NCBI GenBank assembly: GCA_027623295.1
Contig: JAQBXR010000015.1
Span: 1-64,000 of the forward strand
Direction: 5' to 3'
Length of the DNA stretch: 64,000 nt
Source: Planctomycetota bacterium
Lineage (GTDB): Bacteria > Planctomycetota > UBA1135
Shown here: positions 692-58,535 of the stretch, one piece after another
Position numbering within the stretch: the first letter of the stretch is position 1
How the letters are laid out: each line of letters starts with the position of its first letter
Program-made: the position numbers and the translations under genes
The notes under the pieces: model-generated
Database searches by the model: none
Told to the model about the DNA's origin: nothing
The model's input: only the letters and a program-made list of their open reading frames with translations

Positions 692-2254
692 CTAAGGAAC
701 GACCTGCACGGTGCGCGCGACGGAGCTCATGCGTCCGACGGCGGGGCCGGTGTCGAAGGTGGCGGCGGCAAAATAGATGGTGCGGCCAATGATGGGCGCC
801 AGCGCGGAGGTGGCCTGCAGCGTCGCTTGTGCATGGGCGTTCGCATCAAGCGTGCCGTTGGCACCCTGGAGTGGGGGCGGCGCACCACCGCTGGCAAAGC
901 GGTCGAAAATGTTGTCCTGCGTCAACGGGATGTCGAGCCCGGCCATGGTCGTCGGCCCTGTACCGCGGAGTGAGGCAAGCACTGCGTAGCGCGCTCCGGC
1001 CTCGCTGGCCGGGAAGTCCAGGTCGAGTTGCAGATTCCCTGCGCCGGACGCGCTGATGGAATCCGCGCTCGTCTGAAGGAAGGGGTTCAGGGAGTAGACG
1101 TAGGCGGAGCCCGCTTCCGTCAAGCCGCCCGGATCCGCGTTGGTCGCTCCCACGATCACGTCGTCGAAGCCATCGCCGTCGACGTCGCCTGCTCCCGACA
1201 CGGAGTTCCCCAGTTGGTCGTAACTCGCCTGCCCGTCGAACTGCCAGATCAGGTTGCCGGTCGCGCCGGAGTAGACGTAGGCGGAGCCCGCATCCGTCAA
1301 GCCGCCCGGATCCGCGCCCCACGCTCCCACGATCAGATCGTCGAAGCCATCGCCGTCGACGTCGCCTGCTCCCGACCACAACGTACGTGAGACCCCCAGT
1401 TGGTCGAAACTCGCCTGCCCGTCGAACTGCCAGATCAGGTTGCCGGTCGCGCCGGAGTAGACGTAGGCGGAACCCGCAGACGACACGCCGCCCGGATCCG
1501 CGCTGGGCGCGCCGACGATCAGATCGTCGAAGCCATCGCCGTCGACGTCGCCTGCTCCCGACACGGACCACCCCAGTTTGTCGAGTCTCACCTGCCCGTC
1601 GAACTGCCAGATCAGGTTGCCGGTCGCGCCGGAGTAGACGTAGGCGGAACCCGCAGACGACACGCCGCCCGGATCCGCGCTGGGCGCGCCGACGATCACA
1701 TCGTCGAAGCCATCGCCGTCGACGTCGCCTGCTCCCGACACGGATATCCCCAGGATGTCGCTACTCGCCTGCCCGTCGAACTGCCAGATCAGGCTGCCGG
1801 TCGCACCGGAGTAGACGAATGCGGAGCCCGCATCCGACAAGCCGCCTGGATCCGCGCCGTGCGCTCCCACGATGACATCGTCAAAGCCATCGCCGTCGAC
1901 GTCGCCTGCTCCCGACACGGATCTCCCCAGTTGGTCGGCACTCGCCTGCCCGTCGAACTGCCAGATCAGGCTACCGGTCGCGCCGGAGTAGACGAATGCG
2001 GAGCCCGCTTCCGTCAACCCGCCCGGATCTGCCCAGAGTGCACCCACGATCAAATCGTCGAAGCCATCGCCGTCGACGTCGCCTGCTCCCGACACGGAAA
2101 ACCCCAGTAAGTCGTAACTCGCCTGCCCGTCGAACTGCCAGAGCGTCTCCCACTGCCCGCCAACCATTTGCGCGTGCGCGGGTGCGGCTGAGAGTAGGGT
2201 GGCCAGGATCGAGGAAACGATGCAGGTGAGGGTGCGGTGGGGGAAGGAGAGCAT
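692..2254 (-). CDS. Secreted FG-GAP repeat (integrin alpha-like beta-propeller) protein
   Basis: Predicted exported protein of 520 residues. I chose the ATG at 2254 because it directly begins a clean signal peptide (Arg/His-rich start, hydrophobic core, AAPAHA cleavage site); an in-frame ATG at 2335 would bury it. Six FG-GAP repeats of 59 residues follow (about residues 39-387), each with the calcium-binding motif DVDGDGFDD and the phrase GSAxVYSGATG. Repeat 5 carries a 3-residue insertion (SRTLW). The last 130 residues form a separate beta-sandwich-like domain of the kind that ends many secreted planctomycete proteins. The family mediates calcium-dependent adhesion or surface binding; the ligand here is unknown. 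The gene is richer in G+C than its neighbours, and a broken copy of its first 70 codons lies at 12108-12326. Confidence 0.85.
   Translation of the reverse strand: MLSFPHRTLTCIVSSILATLLSAAPAHAQMVGGQWETLWQFDGQASYDLLGFSVSGAGDVDGDGFDDLIVGALWADPGGLTEAGSAFVYSGATGSLIWQFDGQASADQLGRSVSGAGDVDGDGFDDVIVGAHGADPGGLSDAGSAFVYSGATGSLIWQFDGQASSDILGISVSGAGDVDGDGFDDVIVGAPSADPGGVSSAGSAYVYSGATGNLIWQFDGQVRLDKLGWSVSGAGDVDGDGFDDLIVGAPSADPGGVSSAGSAYVYSGATGNLIWQFDGQASFDQLGVSRTLWSGAGDVDGDGFDDLIVGAWGADPGGLTDAGSAYVYSGATGNLIWQFDGQASYDQLGNSVSGAGDVDGDGFDDVIVGATNADPGGLTEAGSAYVYSLNPFLQTSADSISASGAGNLQLDLDFPASEAGARYAVLASLRGTGPTTMAGLDIPLTQDNIFDRFASGGAPPPLQGANGTLDANAHAQATLQATSALAPIIGRTIYFAAATFDTGPAVGRMSSVARTVQVVP
1094..2140 (-). 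repeat. Tandem 177-bp coding repeats (six units)
   Basis: Six head-to-tail units of 177 bp (the fifth 186 bp, the sixth slightly short) encode the FG-GAP blades. Long blocks such as the stretch coding for GAGDVDGDGFDD are nearly identical between units at the DNA level. This points to recent unit duplication or gene conversion, and the tract is prone to copy-number change and assembly collapse. Confidence 0.9.
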
Positions 2255-2342
2255 GGTGGATTCTGAATGGGGGGAGACGACTGTCAGGGACAAAATCCAG
2301 CGTAGCAGAAGAAAAAATGTGGTGGGGTGAAACAAAGTCTGC

Positions 2343-50552: not shown

Positions 50553-51047
50553 TTGAACTATGCTCGCCTGCTCGAACTTCCCAAGGTACTCCGCCTCGCA
50601 GCATGTTTGGGTGCCTTAGTCGCGGTGTACATTCTGGGTGGCTTGCCCGGTGCGTACCGCCCAGCCAACGCCGGCGGTGCATGGTCTTACTTCAGCAACT
50701 TTTTGCATCAGCCTTTGTATGCAGGGGTTGGTTTGAGTCTCCTTTTAGCTCTTGGAAGTTCCAGTAACGCCAAGCGCGAATGGGCTCTAGCTGTAGTTTT
50801 CGCGCTTTGTATTGGGGTTTTAGATGAAATCCATCAATTCCAAACTAGCGCCCGTTCCTCCTCTTTGTGGGATCTTGGCAGCGATGCCTACGGCGCTTTT
50901 TGTGGCGTTTACATCGCTCATCTTTCGCAGACTCCCAAATGGCTGGTGCATCACGCCTTGCTGCTGGGCTTTCTCCTCTCGCTAGGTTTGGCATGGAATT
51001 GCCTGCCCTCTTTCGCGCCGGAAACACCTCTTCCCTTCCTCCGATGA
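50553..51047 (+). CDS. VanZ-like membrane protein
   Basis: A 164-residue protein with four hydrophobic segments and the VanZ-like signature DEIHQFQTSARSSSLWDLGSDAYGA. Members are widespread and of unsettled function; the founding member gives low-level teicoplanin resistance. The start is TTG at 50553, two bases after the nadC stop, and the stop overlaps the purB start as ATGA. Confidence 0.82.
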   Translation: MNYARLLELPKVLRLAACLGALVAVYILGGLPGAYRPANAGGAWSYFSNFLHQPLYAGVGLSLLLALGSSSNAKREWALAVVFALCIGVLDEIHQFQTSARSSSLWDLGSDAYGAFCGVYIAHLSQTPKWLVHHALLLGFLLSLGLAWNCLPSFAPETPLPFLR

Positions 51048-52483
51048 CGGACATTCACGACACCTACTCTTCTCCTCTTGCAACGCGTTACGCCAGTGGC
51101 GCCATGCAAAGTAATTTTTCCTATCGCAGCCGATCTTTGGTGTGGCGCGATTTGTGGATTGCACTTGCGGAGAGCGAACGCGAACTTGGCTTGAATATTT
51201 CCGAGAAGCAAGTCCAGGAACTCAAAGCGGCACGCGAAGACATCGACTTCGATCGGGTTGCCGAGCTTGAGCGCGATTTGCGTCACGATGTCATGGCCCA
51301 CGTGCATGCCTATGGCGAAAAAGCTCCAAGCGCTATGCCGATCATCCACCTTGGTGCTACTTCCTGTTATGTGGCGGACGGCGCCGATCTCGTTTGTATG
51401 CAGCGCGGCTTAGGCATCTTGCGCGCACGCTTGGTGGGTGTGATTCGTGCCCTTTCCGTGTTTGTGAATGAGCAGAGGCACTTGCCGGTTTTGGGTTTCA
51501 CCCATTTCCAGCCCGCGCAGCCCACCACCCTGGGCAAGCGAGCCTCTCTGTGGTTGCAAGATTTCATGCTCGACTTGGAAGAGATCGAAGATGTATTGGC
51601 GCGCTTGCCTTTCCGTGGTGTGAAAGGAACCACTGGAACCCAAGCCTCCTTTTTGCAGTTGTTTGATGGCGACCACAAGAAAGTGCGCGAGTTAGATGAC
51701 CGCATTACCAAGCGCATGGGTTTTTCCCGCAGTGTTTCCGTTTCTGGTCAAACCTACCCGCGTAAATGGGATGGCGTGGTACTCAATGCAGTCTCTGGTA
51801 TTGCAGCCTCTGCGGCAAAGTTCGCAGTCGACATTCGCCTGATGGCGCATCGTCGCGAGTTGGAGGAGCCGTTTGGCAAGAAGCAGATTGGCTCTTCGGC
51901 CATGCCCTACAAACGCAATCCAATGCGCAGCGAACGGATTGGGGCCTTGTCGCGTTACTTGCTGAACTTGGCGCCAAACGCATTGGATACGGCATCCAAC
52001 CAATGGATGGAACGTACCTTGGATGACTCTGCGAACCGCCGCATTACGATTCCTGAATCCTTCCTCGCCGCGGATGCGATTTTGCTCTTAGTGCAAGATG
52101 TGGGGTCGGGCCTGGTGCCATACCCGAATGTCATTGGGCAAAACCTTGCCAAGGAAATGCCATTCATGGCTACTGAGTCGATCCTTATGGCTTGCGTGCA
52201 AGCCGGCGGAGATCGTCAGGAACTGCACGAACTGATTCGTGTGCACAGCCATGAAGCCGCGTATCGCTTGAAGGCCGGAGATGGCCACAATGACCTTCTA
52301 GAGCGCATTGCCGCGGATCCAGCCTTTGCCGCAGTTGCCGGTACTCTTGATGACCTGGTCGACCCGAAGCACTTCGTCGGACGCGCTCCCGAGCAAGTCG
52401 AAGAATACTTGAAGGAGGTCGTCGCGCCGGTGTTGGAAGAGCGCGCTGGGGTTTCGGTGCCAGAAGGTGGCATCAAAGTCTGA
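51044..52483 (+). CDS. purB: Adenylosuccinate lyase
   Basis: Fumarase/aspartase-superfamily lyase that acts twice in AMP synthesis, on SAICAR and on adenylosuccinate. The 479 residues contain HLGATSCYVADGADL, the catalytic-region THFQPAQPTTLGKR, and the flexible signature loop GSSAMPYKRNPMRSE. Length and order are close to the longer PurB group seen in animals and many bacteria. The ATG at 51044 overlaps the VanZ-like gene. It ends the operon; its terminator appears to have been split by the GC-rich segment that follows. Confidence 0.95.
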   Translation: MTDIHDTYSSPLATRYASGAMQSNFSYRSRSLVWRDLWIALAESERELGLNISEKQVQELKAAREDIDFDRVAELERDLRHDVMAHVHAYGEKAPSAMPIIHLGATSCYVADGADLVCMQRGLGILRARLVGVIRALSVFVNEQRHLPVLGFTHFQPAQPTTLGKRASLWLQDFMLDLEEIEDVLARLPFRGVKGTTGTQASFLQLFDGDHKKVRELDDRITKRMGFSRSVSVSGQTYPRKWDGVVLNAVSGIAASAAKFAVDIRLMAHRRELEEPFGKKQIGSSAMPYKRNPMRSERIGALSRYLLNLAPNALDTASNQWMERTLDDSANRRITIPESFLAADAILLLVQDVGSGLVPYPNVIGQNLAKEMPFMATESILMACVQAGGDRQELHELIRVHSHEAAYRLKAGDGHNDLLERIAADPAFAAVAGTLDDLVDPKHFVGRAPEQVEEYLKEVVAPVLEERAGVSVPEGGIKV

Positions 52484-52503
52484 CCCTCCATCCAGGCAAA
52501 AAG

Positions 52504-52516
52504 AAAACCGTCACCC
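52504..52516. terminator. Left half-stem of a split terminator after purB
   Basis: AAAACCGTCACCC lies 20 bases after the purB stop, preceded by AAAAAG. Its exact reverse complement is found only at 57713-57725, where it runs into seven T. Brought together they make a perfect 13-bp bidirectional terminator. No pairing partner lies nearby on the left side. Confidence 0.75.
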
Positions 52517-52522
52517 GCGTAA

Positions 52523-53302
52523 ACGCTCGAGCGCAGCGATCTGCCGCCTTGGCAACGCGCGCGCATCCACCAATTGCTGCGCCGTTTCAATGCCTTCGAG
52601 GGCTACACCCTGGATCGTTATCCCATCGCGACCGCGATCTCGCCGCTCGACCGCGACGCGTTGTTGCGCTTGCGACCGAATGCGCGCGTCGAGGTGATCG
52701 CGAACGGAGTGGACTTGGAGATGTTCCGTCCGTTGCCGGACGTGGCCGAGAAGCCCGACAATCTGATCCTGTTCGGCAACATGGATTTCCTTCCCAACGT
52801 GGACGCCGCGATCCACTTCGCGCGCGAAATCCTGCCGCGCGTGCGCGAGCGGCGTCTGCAAGCGAACTTCACGATCGTTGGCACGCGGCCCTTGCCCGAG
52901 GTGCGCTTGCTCGCCGAGGAATTGGACGGAGTGGAAGTCACCGGCGGCGTGCCGGATCTGAAGCCCTGGATTCAGCGCGCCACCATGCTGGTTGCGCCGA
53001 TGCGCTTCGGTGCCGGGATGAAGAACAAGATCCTCGAAACGCTTGCGATGGAGAAGCCGGTGGTGACCAATCCGACCGGCATCGAATCCTTCGAGAGCGA
53101 AGTGCGCGGGCTGTTACGCGTGGCCCACGATGATCAAGAATTCGCGGACCTGGTCTGCGACTTGCTCGACGCGCCGGATGAACGGCGCCGCATCGGCACG
53201 GATGGGCGCGCGTTGATGCAGCGGCGACACTCCTGGGAGGTCGCCGCCACGCGCTATGAAGAGATCTTCGCCGAGCTCGCCGCTACTGCACCGTCAGCGT
53301 GA
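52523..53302 (+). pseudogene. Glycosyltransferase family 4, 5'-truncated
   Basis: The frame opens right after an in-frame TAA at 52520, seven bases inside the left junction, and begins in the middle of a GT4 protein (TLERSDLPPWQRARIHQLLRR). It continues through AISPLDRD, VEVIANGVDLEMFRP, LFGNMDFLPNVDAAIHFA, VAPMRFGAGMKNKILETLAM and PVVTNPTGIE. This is the complete C-terminal nucleotide-sugar domain, but roughly 150 residues of the acceptor domain are absent. A TTG at 52574 could start translation of the remainder, which would not be active alone. It overlaps the convergent choice-of-anchor B gene by 20 bases. Confidence 0.8.
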
Positions 53303-55460
53303 GGAAATTCGAGTCGGCCATCGCGAATCCGGGGCCCGGCAGCCGCGCCGCCGCCTCGAGATGCACCGAACGCCCGGCAATGCCGAGCGGCACCGTCACG
53401 CTGAAGTTCGCTACGCCCGCTCCGTCTGTGGTCGCGCTCGCGATCAGTTGCACCGGGTCGGCAAGGTCGAACACGTGCCCGAAGCGCGTGGTGAAGGCGA
53501 GCGTGCGCGAGGCCAGCAACCAAGCCGGGGAGACGGCCGGAGCGCTGCTCAAGGAATAGTTCACGGACTGGCCGGGCGAGGCGCTGAAAGGCCCCGTGAG
53601 TTGCAGGCCGTCGCTGCCGGAAGGACGCAGCGAGTACAGCTCGAAGTCGTCCAGGTTCCAGCCGCCGAAGGTCATTCCGGTGCTGCCATCGAGTTCGAAG
53701 CGCACCACGACTGCGGCGCGTCCGTCGGCGAGCGCCGAGATGTCGAGATCCTGCAGCGACCAATCCTCGTCCCAATGCGCCGTGAGCTTGCTCGGATTTT
53801 CCCAAACCGTGACGCCGTTGACCAGGATGCGCGCTTCGTCCATGGAACGCGCGCGAATGGCGAGCCAGCGCTGGAAACGCAAGTGCACTCCGGCTCGCCC
53901 GCGGCAGTCGATCGGCGGTGAGTCGAGGAAGGAATGCGATCCGGCCAGAAATTTTCCGTTCTGTCCGTTGGCACCGAGGTCGTTACCCCAACTTTGCAGT
54001 CCCGATGCGGCGTGATCGGGATCTTCGGCGCGTCCTCGCGGCGTGCCGCGCTGCCAGTCGTCTCCGCCGCCCAGGGTGCCGTGCGTCCAACCTTCGTCCG
54101 ATGCTCCCTCGAAGCCGTTGGCGTAGATCGGAGTCCGCTCCCCGACGTGGAACAGGAAGGCGCCGCTGCGCGGTGCGCGCTGCAGCGCGCCGTCGGAGTC
54201 AACGGCCTCGATGCGGTAGAGAACGACTGCAGGCGAGATTTGACCGGGGAGATCCGCGGTCCAGATGCTGCCGCCCGCGTTTGTCATCGCGACCGACTGT
54301 TCGATCACGCCGGGGACGTGCCAGAACACTTTGGCGGAGACCGGCTGCGCCGCTCCGAGCGGAATCAAATCTGCGCTCACCGGATAGGGTCCCTGCTCGT
54401 CTGCGGTGTCCGCAAGCGGCGCGTGCACCACGTCAATCACTTCACCGTCGACCTTGAGTACGAAGAGGCCATGGTCGATGTCACTGGCAAAGACGATGCC
54501 GGAAGGGTTGAAGGGGTAGACGCCCCAGTTACCGACCGTCGCGGAACCCTTCAGGTTGGTGGTGTCGTAGCGTCCGATGAGACTCGGCGCGGCGGGATTG
54601 GCCAGATCCCAGCAAGTGAAGCCGGCGGCGTAGGTGGAGACGTAGGCGCGGCCGCTACTCAGGATGACGTTGTGGACGGTGGCGCCGAATGGGGACAGGG
54701 TCGAGAGCAGAACGGGCGCCGCTGGATTGGTGATGTCGTAGATGGCCACGTCTCCGCCCGAAGACTCGTCGGTCGTGGCGCACAGCGTGTCGGTCTCATC
54801 GGCCCAGGCGTTGTGCGTGAACGTTCCCGGAGTCGCGGTCGCGGAGAGGCTCGGAAAACTCGGCAGCGAGTTCACCGAGACGATGCGGTAGCGGCCGGTG
54901 TAGATCTCCGCGAGGTGCGCTCTACCGTGCTGGACGTGTCCGTCGTGTACGTACTGCGCGGTATAGGTGGCCACCCACGGCGGATTGCTCGGGCTCACGC
55001 TGAGGTCGAAAACCGGCATTCCGGACGGCGTGCCGCAGGCGTAGAGCATTCCTGTGCTCTGATCGATCATCAGGTTGTGGGAATGCCCGACTTGCGCGGT
55101 GCCGAAGGTGCGCACCAGCACCGGATTGGCCGGATTGGCGAGGTTGATCGCCTGAACGCCGGATCCTCCCTCGGTGACCACGTAGCAGTAGTCGCCGTAG
55201 GTCTTCATGTCGCGCCACTGTGAAGTCGGTCCGGGAATGAATCCGACTCGCACCGGCGCGCTCGGGACGCTGCAGTCGTAAAAAGCGGTGCCGGTATTGG
55301 TGCCGAGAATCGCGTACTCGACGCCGTTGGGAGCCGTGTAGCCCCAGATGTCGTTGTAGGACGAATACTCGTCCACCTGCGCGAGCAGGCGTACGCCGTT
55401 GCCGGGATCCGCCGATTGCGCTGTCACCGGAAGGAGGAAGAGGAGGCAGCCGAGCATCAT
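53283..55460 (-). CDS. Exported choice-of-anchor B family beta-propeller protein (copy 1)
   Basis: A 725-residue exported protein with a signal peptide. The choice-of-anchor B propeller (TIGR04312-type, LVIVD-like repeats; about residues 25-360) has WGYTAPNGVEYAILGTNTG, WRDMKTYGDYCYVVTEGG and GHSHNLMIDQSTGMLYACG. A carbohydrate-binding-like sandwich (about 460-610, with GWNLDDFELY) and a final beta-sandwich ending LTLTVQ follow. Such proteins are surface-linked in planctomycetes and related marine bacteria. It is the second gene of a pair, five bases after copy 2. High G+C and location mark it as part of the inserted segment. Confidence 0.85.
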   Translation of the reverse strand: MMLGCLLFLLPVTAQSADPGNGVRLLAQVDEYSSYNDIWGYTAPNGVEYAILGTNTGTAFYDCSVPSAPVRVGFIPGPTSQWRDMKTYGDYCYVVTEGGSGVQAINLANPANPVLVRTFGTAQVGHSHNLMIDQSTGMLYACGTPSGMPVFDLSVSPSNPPWVATYTAQYVHDGHVQHGRAHLAEIYTGRYRIVSVNSLPSFPSLSATATPGTFTHNAWADETDTLCATTDESSGGDVAIYDITNPAAPVLLSTLSPFGATVHNVILSSGRAYVSTYAAGFTCWDLANPAAPSLIGRYDTTNLKGSATVGNWGVYPFNPSGIVFASDIDHGLFVLKVDGEVIDVVHAPLADTADEQGPYPVSADLIPLGAAQPVSAKVFWHVPGVIEQSVAMTNAGGSIWTADLPGQISPAVVLYRIEAVDSDGALQRAPRSGAFLFHVGERTPIYANGFEGASDEGWTHGTLGGGDDWQRGTPRGRAEDPDHAASGLQSWGNDLGANGQNGKFLAGSHSFLDSPPIDCRGRAGVHLRFQRWLAIRARSMDEARILVNGVTVWENPSKLTAHWDEDWSLQDLDISALADGRAAVVVRFELDGSTGMTFGGWNLDDFELYSLRPSGSDGLQLTGPFSASPGQSVNYSLSSAPAVSPAWLLASRTLAFTTRFGHVFDLADPVQLIASATTDGAGVANFSVTVPLGIAGRSVHLEAAARLPGPGFAMADSNFLTLTVQ

Positions 55461-55464
55461 GGGA

Positions 55465-57627
55465 TCAAAGGACCGTCACGGTGAGCAGGTTCGAGTCCTT
55501 CCACTGCGAACCAGACTTGGACGCGACCTCGAAGTAGGCCGTGGCGCCGGAGGCGCCTCCGGGCACGTTGAGGGTGACGCTGCCGCCGCCGAGCGCGCTG
55601 GTGGTGCCGGTCATCAGCACCGTCACCGGACCGCCGATGTCGAATTGATGGCCGTTGTAGGTCAGCCCGTTGGCGCTGGAGCCTTTGAGGAACCAATAGG
55701 GCGCCGACGCCGGAGCGCTCGTGAAGTTCCAGGTCGAGGGCGCTCCCGCAGGAATACTGACGGGACCGGACAACACGATGGTGTTGCCGCCGCCGCCCGA
55801 GGTGAGCACGTAGAGCTCGAAGTCGTCGAGGTTCCAGCCGCCGAAGTCCACGCCGCCATCGGACTGCAGTCGGAAAGTGATCTGCACCGAGGGGTTGTTG
55901 TCGGCCCACTGCGAGATGTCGAGATCCATCGCGGTCCACGCCGTGTCGATCAAATCGACGTTAGCCGGGTTCTGCCACGCCACTTGACCGTTCACCTCGA
56001 TCGTGGCTTGGTCGTACTGGCCGGATTCAACCGTCAACCAACGCTGGAAATTCAGGCGCACGCCCACCTTGCCGGAACAGTCGATGGCGGGGGAGCGCAG
56101 GTAGTTGTGGACGTTCGGCTGATACGCGCCGTTGAATCCGGACGGGCCGAGGTCATTGCCCCAGCAGTTTGCGCCGGAGTAGGCCGAGCCGGGGTCGCCG
56201 GAGTTCCCTTGCGGGACGCCGCGCTGCCAATCGTCCTGGGTGGCGAGTTGCGCGTGGGTCCACCCTTCATCGGTCGCGCCGTCGAAGGAGTTGGCGTAGA
56301 TCTGCGTCAGCACGCCGACGCGGAACTCGTGCGCGCCGCTCGGCGGATCACTCACGCTGCGCGCGAGGTTGTCCGTGGCCGTGATGAAGTAATCCACGAT
56401 CGCGGGCGCGGACTGTCCGGGGATCGCCGCCTCCCAGACGTCGCCACCGAGGGGATTCATGCTCAGGGTCTGGGTGGCGCCTCCGTTCACGCTGTACTCG
56501 ACCTCCGCCGTGCTGATGAAGTTGTTGCTCAGCGGAGTGATCGTGGCGGTCACCGTGTACGGGCCGGTCTCGTTCTGGGTGTCGGTCAGCGGCGTGTGCG
56601 CGATGTCCATCACCGGTCCGTCCACGCGGAGCACGAAGAGTCCGTTGTCCATGTCACTGACGTAGGTCATGCCGTTCTGAGTGAACGGATAGACCCCCCA
56701 GGCGCCGTCGTAGCCGGTTCCGGAGGCGGCATTGGTGTCGTAGCTGCCGAAGACTTGCGGGTTGGCCGGGTTTGAGATGTCCAGGCAGACGAAACCCGCC
56801 GTGTACCAAGAAGCGTAGACCCGGTCTCCGAGGATCGTCGCGTTGTGGATCGTTGCTCCCGAAACGTCGTACCGCGACAAGAATTGAATGTTGGTCGGCG
56901 TCGAAGTGTCGTACAAGGCGAGGCCGCCGCCGGACGATTCGTCCGAGGTCGCGCACACGGTGTTGCCTGCGTTGGCCCAAGTGTTGTGGGTGAAGTTGCC
57001 CGGAGTCTGGATCGAATCCTGGCTCGGGAAGGACGGGAGGCTGGCGACCGAGACGATCCGGTAGTCGCCGTCGTTGATCTCGGCGAAGTGCGCCAGGCCG
57101 TTCTGCACGTGGGCGTCGTGCACGTAGCGCGCGGTGTAGGTCGCCGCGAGCACCGGACTGGTTGGGTTCGACAGGTTGATCACGGGCACGCCACCCGTCG
57201 CGCCGCAGATGTAGGCCATGCCTGCGCCGACGTCGATCGCGATGTTGTGCGCATGGCTCCAGATCGAAGTTCCCCAGGTCTGCAGCAGAACCGGAACCTC
57301 CGGATTCACCAAACTGACGATCTGCATTCCTGCGCCGCCTTCCGTCACGATGTAGCAGTACGGCCCGAGGGTCTTCATGTCCCGCCAGGTCGAGCTCGGA
57401 CCGGAGATGAATCCAACCCGGTACGGAGCGCTCGGGTTGCTGCAGTTGTAGAAGGCCGTTCCGTCACGCGTGCCGAGGATCGCGTATTCCCGACCGTCCG
57501 GCGCGGTGTAGCCCCAGATGTCGTTGTAGAAGGAGTACTGATCCACGTTCGACATCAGCGTCACGCCGTTGCCTTGCGCGGGGAGGGAGGCCGCAGCGGC
57601 GGCAAGCAGGATGAGGGTCGTGAGCAT
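55465..57627 (-). CDS. Exported choice-of-anchor B family beta-propeller protein (copy 2)
   Basis: A 720-residue paralogue of the adjacent gene with the same layout: signal peptide, propeller (WGYTAPDGREYAILGTRDG, WRDMKTLGPYCYIVTEGG), sandwich domain ending GWNLDDFELYVL, and a terminal beta-sandwich ending LTVTVL. The two proteins align over their whole length, so the pair arose by tandem duplication, though they have diverged considerably. It is transcribed first. Upstream there are only about 85 bases before the right junction, so any promoter must lie there. Confidence 0.85.
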   Translation of the reverse strand: MLTTLILLAAAAASLPAQGNGVTLMSNVDQYSFYNDIWGYTAPDGREYAILGTRDGTAFYNCSNPSAPYRVGFISGPSSTWRDMKTLGPYCYIVTEGGAGMQIVSLVNPEVPVLLQTWGTSIWSHAHNIAIDVGAGMAYICGATGGVPVINLSNPTSPVLAATYTARYVHDAHVQNGLAHFAEINDGDYRIVSVASLPSFPSQDSIQTPGNFTHNTWANAGNTVCATSDESSGGGLALYDTSTPTNIQFLSRYDVSGATIHNATILGDRVYASWYTAGFVCLDISNPANPQVFGSYDTNAASGTGYDGAWGVYPFTQNGMTYVSDMDNGLFVLRVDGPVMDIAHTPLTDTQNETGPYTVTATITPLSNNFISTAEVEYSVNGGATQTLSMNPLGGDVWEAAIPGQSAPAIVDYFITATDNLARSVSDPPSGAHEFRVGVLTQIYANSFDGATDEGWTHAQLATQDDWQRGVPQGNSGDPGSAYSGANCWGNDLGPSGFNGAYQPNVHNYLRSPAIDCSGKVGVRLNFQRWLTVESGQYDQATIEVNGQVAWQNPANVDLIDTAWTAMDLDISQWADNNPSVQITFRLQSDGGVDFGGWNLDDFELYVLTSGGGGNTIVLSGPVSIPAGAPSTWNFTSAPASAPYWFLKGSSANGLTYNGHQFDIGGPVTVLMTGTTSALGGGSVTLNVPGGASGATAYFEVASKSGSQWKDSNLLTVTVL

Positions 57628-57712
57628 TTTGATCGGGCGGGTCAGTCACGTTCCAGGATCAAAGGTCCGTGGAGCGCATCACAGGATCGAATGAAACAGG
57701 GGAGGAGGTATG

Positions 57713-57728
57713 GGGTGACGGTTTTTTT
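57713..57728. terminator. Right half-stem of the split terminator
   Basis: GGGTGACGGTTTT followed by three more T is the reverse complement of 52504-52516. It lies 12 bases from the stop of the Cys-rich lipoprotein gene, which converges on purB. This is where a shared terminator of the two genes would be expected if the GC-rich segment were absent. Confidence 0.75.
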
Positions 57729-57739
57729 AGGAATGATGC

Positions 57740-58399
57740 TTAGTTGGAAGGCTCAGCCGACTTGCTGGAGCAGCAAGAGGACTCTTCAGCTTTCACAGCA
57801 CTGGCCTGAGTTGCACCAGTTTTAACTGAAGCAGGAGCTTCTTCGCTCGAGCACTCGCTCTTAGCTTCGCCTGCAGCCTTAATGGTTTCGCACTCTGCTG
57901 GATCCTTGCCTTCGCACTGCTTCATGGGAGCAGCGATGGCTTTCTCAGCACATCCGCCACAAGCGTCTGCGACGGTCTTGCCTTCGCAGCAGCCTTCCCC
58001 AACGACGAGGCTTGCTTGAACAGCAAGGGAGGCAGCAACAGCTGCTTCAGCCTTCGCTTTTTCGATTGGGCATTCCTTGGTGCTCAATTCGGAGCACTCG
58101 GTGTTGGCCGCCGCCGCAGCAGTCGCGGCTGCAGTAGCTTTCTCTTCGCAGCATCCGCCCTCAACTTCGACGAGCATGGCAACTGCAGTGGCCTCAGCCG
58201 CTGCATCTTCACTGCACTCAGACTGGCCTTCCGTGCACTCGGAAGTCGCGGCTGCAGTAGCCTCGGATGAACAATCAGCACCGGAGCAATCCTTGGAATC
58301 TTCTAGAGAGGCTGGGGATGCGGTGGCGTTGTTGCCTTGGTTTGGCACTTGGCAAGCGCCAAAGGCGAGGAGAAGAACAGGCAGAAGGAATCGAATCAT
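57740..58399 (-). CDS. Cysteine-rich repeat lipoprotein
   Basis: A 219-residue predicted lipoprotein (hydrophobic start, FGAC lipobox with Cys16) of no family I recognise. The mature part has about 17 further Cys in a sea of Ala, Glu, Ser and Lys. They are arranged in roughly three units: a C-x6/7-C pair, an Ala-rich helix-like stretch, then a CC doublet (GGCCEEK, GEGCCEGK, SSCCSSK), with one CGGC. The pattern suggests metal binding or a disulfide-braced spacer in the periplasm. It converges on purB across the split terminator. A perfect inverted repeat lies 29 bases upstream of its start. Confidence 0.7.
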   Translation of the reverse strand: MIRFLLPVLLLAFGACQVPNQGNNATASPASLEDSKDCSGADCSSEATAAATSECTEGQSECSEDAAAEATAVAMLVEVEGGCCEEKATAAATAAAAANTECSELSTKECPIEKAKAEAAVAASLAVQASLVVGEGCCEGKTVADACGGCAEKAIAAPMKQCEGKDPAECETIKAAGEAKSECSSEEAPASVKTGATQASAVKAEESSCCSSKSAEPSN

Positions 58400-58427
58400 G
58401 TATCTTAGACCTCGGATGGTGCGGATT

Positions 58428-58490
58428 ATTCCGCGACAATTCCCGAGTTATTGCCATATTACAGCAAAACCTAGGGAATTGTCGCGGAAT
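58428..58490. promoter_or_regulatory. Perfect 17-bp inverted repeat between divergent genes
   Basis: Arms 58428-58444 (ATTCCGCGACAATTCCC) and 58474-58490 are exact reverse complements separated by 29 bases. Each arm contains ATTCC twice, 11 bp apart (one helical turn). The repeat lies 28 bases from the lipoprotein start and 45 from the isomerase-like start. GCGACA in each arm, with A/T-rich hexamers in the spacer, could form divergent promoters. It looks like an operator for a dimeric regulator serving both genes; no T-run follows, so it is not a terminator. Confidence 0.6.
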
Positions 58491-58535
58491 CCCAATCCTC
58501 TTTGACGGACGGAAAACCTTTCAATCCAGGTGAAA

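Follow-up and report, generated by a model that had tools for sequence, protein, structure and literature searches.

A foreign 5188-bp segment inside a split purB terminator is more likely an assembly joining error than a real insertion

Introduction

In interspecies chimeric contigs (translocation misassemblies) of short-read metagenomes, a segment of one co-assembled genome lies inside a contig of another, and such joins usually occur at sequence shared by both genomes. Illegitimate, that is, homology-independent, integration of foreign linear DNA leaves random donor ends and junctions that show little or no homology, involves no mobile element, and usually deletes DNA of the recipient. Palindrome-targeting insertion sequences and group IIC introns that insert at terminators have as their target a hairpin downstream of a gene. 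Insertion sequences aimed at extragenic palindromes are known (PMC1525189), and one study put misassembled contigs, of all kinds, at 7% per metagenome (PMC10174551).

Here we analyze a locus that has features of each. It lies in the first 64,000 nucleotides (the window) of a contig (JAQBXR010000015.1, here C1) from a planctomycete genome (GCA_027623295.1, here G000), in which the terminator between purB and a convergent gene for a Cys-rich lipoprotein is split by 5188 bp of foreign DNA. As in chimeric contigs, there are a k-mer-length overlap with a contig of the donor's bin, a jump in composition, and a loss from the donor bin; unlike in the usual chimeric join, the flanks share no k-mer and the detour comes back to the exact base that it left. 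Random donor ends, junctions with little or no homology, and the absence of a mobile element recall illegitimate integration, but no host DNA was lost and the match to the donor shows no divergence. Finally, the target is a hairpin downstream of a gene, as for the palindrome-targeting insertion sequences and group IIC introns, but the segment has no transposase, reverse transcriptase, intron structure, or defined ends.

Results

A Terminator in Two Pieces

The sequence AAAACCGTCACCC occurs exactly twice in the 64-kb window, at 52504-52516 on the forward strand and at 57713-57725 on the reverse strand (chance expectation in the window, 0.00), and in the whole 2.45-Mb genome it and its reverse complement are found once each, at the same two places. 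The initial annotation had drawn attention to this 13-nt repeat and its exact inverse copy, 5.2 kb apart after purB and before the lipoprotein gene, and had proposed that the two form a single bidirectional terminator for both genes. Indeed, in the sister genome G003 the region between purB and the lipoprotein gene contains a single uninterrupted terminator, AAAACCGTCACCCGCGTTAACGGGTGACGGTTTTTTTA; AAAACCGTCACCCGCGTAAACG (52504-52525) and GGTGACGGTTTTTTTA (from 57714) are the two pieces of its counterpart in the window. The closed hairpin has a stem of 14 bp and a folding energy of -17.2 kcal/mol as DNA (z = -6.8).

Alignment to the closed hairpin of G003 located the break. The left flank, which ends at 52525, comprises the 5' arm (14 nt), the loop (CGTAAA, 6 nt), and the first two bases of the 3' arm; the remainder of the 3' arm restarts at 57714. 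Thus, the segment does lie within the hairpin, as the initial annotation had it, but the break falls two bases into the 3' arm and not in the loop. When 52504-52525 is joined to 57714-57729, the result has the same length as its counterpart in G003 and differs from it by one base in the loop. Because the empty hairpin of G003 occupies the same place and has the same length, no base of the host has been lost or duplicated at the purB terminator. A lipoprotein gene of this type comes immediately after purB in seven relatives (G001-G006 and G010), and the uninterrupted arrangement is therefore ancestral. The purB contig of G008, a genome considered below, has a different arrangement downstream and is uninformative on the empty site. 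The features of the locus are collected in Table 1.

Table 1. Features of the purB-lipoprotein region of contig C1
Feature	Coordinates	Strand	Basis or remark
purB (adenylosuccinate lyase), left host flank	51045..52483	+	Start approximate; orthologues 69-84% identical in DNA across the family
purB terminator: 5' arm, loop, first two bases of 3' arm	52504..52525	+	Alignment to closed hairpin of G003
Foreign segment, 5188 bp	52526..57713	.	Composition, empty site in G003, donor match at right end; right end ambiguous by one base
TIGR03087 (PEP-CTERM/XrtA system) glycosyltransferase without its first ~160 residues	52526..53302	+	NCBIfam profile positions 169-395 of 397
Choice-of-anchor B family protein, 725 aa, intact	53283..55460	-	TIGR04312, E = 9.2e-48
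Choice-of-anchor B family protein, 720 aa, intact	55465..57627	-	TIGR04312, E = 1.4e-49
69-bp stretch identical to the start of G008:C214 (JAQBVK010000235.1); putative assembly-graph vertex	57645..57713	+	Exact identity
Split terminator: rest of 3' arm and T run, serving the lipoprotein gene on the other strand	57714..57729	+	Alignment to G003
Cys-rich lipoprotein gene, right host flank	57740..58399	-	Next to purB in seven relatives

The neighborhood of the terminator has some further peculiarities. The lipoprotein is rich in Ala as well as in Cys, has no match in Pfam or NCBIfam, and differs among relatives in length and in number of repeats; just upstream of its gene is a 63-nt imperfect palindrome (58428-58490) that is 83% self-complementary. 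In G003 (contig C24), the purB stop codon and the terminator are separated by an additional stretch of about 170 bp that resembles a small non-autonomous element, its ends (CCTAGGGAAACCCTGATTTAG ... AATCAGAGCTTCCCTATG) being partly complementary.

A Slice of a Family-Wide Chromosomal Locus

As had been remarked from the sequence, the segment begins with a gene that is cut at the junction. This gene, whose full-length homologues occur in relatives, retains the 3' two-thirds of a glycosyltransferase coding sequence. It and the two genes for anchor-B proteins are the only long frames in the segment that match a protein family; no gene for a transposase, recombinase, or reverse transcriptase was found among them. 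Nearly all of the genomes of the family (25/26) match the segment somewhere, and in several of them a glycosyltransferase gene is followed by anchor-B genes. The segment is thus part of a chromosomal locus shared across the family, and not an element.

Could the segment simply be native, inherited vertically and placed by accident between two chance repeats? The family does carry homologous loci, which speaks for this view. However, G000 already holds a full-length glycosyltransferase and anchor-B locus of native composition elsewhere (C18:15333-20152), the glycosyltransferase gene at the purB site is truncated at the junction, and purB adjoins the lipoprotein gene in the seven relatives. Given this synteny and the resident copy, together with the composition described below, we reject vertical descent as having next to no probability.

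The initial annotation had also raised the possibility of a mobile process that targets terminator hairpins; such a mobile or site-specific process would here depend on a recombinase supplied in trans. A hairpin target, a precise insertion, and the lack of a target duplication would suit such a process, and insertion sequences directed at extragenic palindromes offer a precedent. But what was inserted is an ordinary piece of chromosome with arbitrary ends, one of them within a gene. We found no terminal repeats, attachment-like ends, target-site duplication, or direct repeat at its ends, which are flanked by the host terminator arms only; the region 52000-58500 had no match of any kind in Rfam, group II intron RNA included, up to E = 0.5; and collections of plasmids and phages yielded no match to the segment. 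Nor was a second such insertion seen in the approximately 1 Mb of G000 that was examined. The proposal is not borne out, and we regard it as highly improbable.

Composition and Donor

The segment was described at the outset as visibly richer in G+C than its surroundings, and the difference is large: 64.7% versus 55-56% outside, with no other 5.2-kb stretch of the window exceeding 59.7%. Its tetranucleotide profile correlates at 0.92-0.95 with the profiles of C214 and the six long contigs of G008, a genome from another genus of the same family; the correlation with its own genome is 0.52-0.62. When a Markov model was trained on both genomes, it delimited the foreign segment at 52524-57626 and scored it three times as high as anything else in the window; in the approximately 1 Mb examined outside the segment, the runner-up was a contig end bearing a transposase. 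The only other G+C-rich stretch of the window (66%) is a gene with FG-GAP repeats (692-2335, reverse strand), probably a multicopy gene native to the genome. Contigs C6 and C10, whose ends overlap by 34 bp, each carry part of a second copy (91-93% identity) at those ends.

The right end of the segment provided a direct link to a donor. Positions 57645-57713 are identical (69/69) to the first 69 bp of C214 of G008, and the match ends exactly at the right junction. Beyond the 69 bp, this 4.2-kb contig continues the donor array with another anchor-B gene in the same orientation. The donor is G008 or a very near relative of it, probably a co-occurring species. The contig is listed as JAQBVK010000235.1, NODE_49308 of bin casp150-mb.178 (Caspian Sea), and Caspian Sea bins named in this way derive from metaSPAdes assemblies of 101-bp Illumina pairs (PMC9726936), the reads of which, from depths of 15, 40, and 150 m, are in BioProject PRJNA279271. 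Thus, the view that foreign DNA occupies a formerly intact terminator is upheld by the empty site of the sister genome, by the donor contig, and by the donor-like composition.

The left junction has no such counterpart. Exact and near-exact patterns found no donor contig upstream of it in 26 genomes of the family, 392 genomes of the phylum, or viral contigs, and a search of viral contigs for the closed hairpin and for the right end of the donor found neither. The left joint is documented by composition and the truncated gene only.

Contig Breaks and the 69-bp Overlap

Overlaps of the same size recur in both genomes. In G000, the contig ends C9R and C13L have exactly 69 bp in common; in G008, the first 69 bp of contig C202 also lie within C28, at the end of what appears by eye to be an insertion-sequence transposase frame. 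Both assemblies were therefore very likely made with a k-mer length of 69. Moreover, the contigs of G000 are listed in what looks like the order of length-ranked names sorted as text, in interleaved descending series of about 245-183, 157-87, 65-19, and 14.5-4 kb. From this order and the overlaps, we infer that G000 and G008 probably share one metaSPAdes assembly graph, in which 57645-57713 would be a vertex followed on one branch by the donor continuation and on the other by the lipoprotein side.

Contig breaks are also associated with strong hairpins, which we defined by stems of at least 11 bp and which are rare (about 21 per Mb). Two other breaks of G000 contigs are at such hairpins (C9/C13 inside one and C21L 9 bp away), and the break on the donor side is beside a 13-bp hairpin. 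The probability of two tips falling within 20 bp of strong hairpins is about 0.005, a statistic chosen after the data had been seen.

The break between C9R and C13L lies within a 14-bp terminator hairpin, one base into the 3' arm, much like the purB site. We considered it as a parallel case and rejected it: G003 has about 6 kb of other genes, and no strong hairpin, between the homologous regions. The other branch at the C9/C13 vertex was not found among the genomes of the taxonomic order.

Discussion

We favor the view that contig C1 is a chimera, in which flanks of G000 enclose a foreign stretch (52526-57713) from a co-assembled donor, the reason being the exact overlap of 69 bp with a contig whose genome probably comes from the same assembly. 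An assembly that joined foreign DNA at the palindrome was one of two explanations offered initially; we consider it probable, with the qualification that its k-mer-length overlap is seen at the right junction (57713), where the contig start that is matched carries on the donor array, and that no counterpart was found at the left. The overlap has the size seen at C9R/C13L and C202/C28, as for k-mer overlaps in one graph, and the node name of C214 and its bin are of the type used for metaSPAdes bins. The bin of G008 has no TIGR03087 gene, as though its copy were in C1. The segment is donor-like in composition without sign of adaptation; it has arbitrary ends and none of the genes, repeats, or duplications of a mobile element. 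The association of contig breaks with strong hairpins also speaks for a chimera. The site is uninterrupted in G003 and adjoined by the same genes in seven relatives, and the segment continues in the donor genome on C214.

How might such a contig arise? The likely trigger is the strong hairpin: in a short-read library, lost reads or template switching there would weaken the correct link between purB and the lipoprotein gene, and spurious graph links at hairpins would tie G000 to the donor stretch. The contig path would leave G000 for the donor at the purB terminator hairpin and exit through the vertex at 57645-57713, back to the other side of the same hairpin, with the assembler taking the detour. 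The real chromosome would have the ordinary order of purB, terminator, and lipoprotein gene, and the junctions of C1 would not exist physically. A gap-closing join by SPAdes at the right junction is unlikely, because the donor path runs past the vertex into C214 and hence offers no dead end.

Several considerations weigh against a chimera. Two separate false joins must have chosen the same donor locus, in consistent orientation, and restored the host without loss; the contig contains no N, and therefore no blind scaffold jump took place; the searches turned up no donor contig that ends at the left junction; the hairpin statistics were picked post hoc; and the common assembly is deduced. Furthermore, a segment truly shared by two genomes of one sample would likewise yield a 69-bp fork and a donor bin without the segment, and the 69-bp fork at the apparent insertion sequence of G008 indicates that real repeats do so.

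The main rival is a genuine and very recent horizontal transfer: G000 would have acquired a linear piece of a G008-like chromosome without the help of homology, for instance through end-joining where the extruded hairpin had broken or through template switching there, and the insertion would have spread in its population. The segment has both of the marks by which recent transfer is recognized, a foreign composition and a close relative that is foreign. The contig is free of gaps, its two junctions point to the same donor, orientation, and exact position, and the host sequence has neither lost nor gained a base; in addition, a false detour of low depth should have been pruned, the host contigs being far longer than those of the donor. 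Against such a transfer are the complete identity to the donor in the 69 comparable bp, the absence of a selectable gene or mobility function to account for a sweep, and breakpoints at hairpins, which break other contigs of this assembly as well. We judge it possible but rather unlikely; an assembly joining error is more likely than a real insertion. The broader idea that a strong terminator hairpin served as a site of breakage or template switching at which a large linear fragment of a neighboring species was captured with neither recombinase nor loss, such that terminators would be landing sites for random environmental DNA, seems to us doubtful.

If contig C1 is a chimera, it exemplifies the way in which false gene transfers reach public genomes: there are no gaps in it, the host sequence is perfectly restored at the joint, and the error is invisible to the quality statistics of the bin (estimated contamination, 0.08%). 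A k-mer-length overlap with a contig of another bin would then be a simple test for such chimeras. If the insertion is real, it would be a clean case in which foreign chromosomal DNA was captured at a terminator hairpin without a recombinase.

Another probable false join, or else a strain rearrangement, is present within G000, and as a false join it would add to the case for a chimera. The right end of C4 stops inside a gene and enters 70 bp that are also present within C23, where they belong to an ATPase gene (C23:4157-4226) that is read in antisense. Finally, the last approximately 1.5 kb of contig C26 (L144:18487-20000), after thyA, is foreign-looking; there, the C-terminal part of a Y2-type (IS91-like) transposase runs in frame into the beginning of a sulfatase gene, possibly as the end of a mobile element or as another misjoin.
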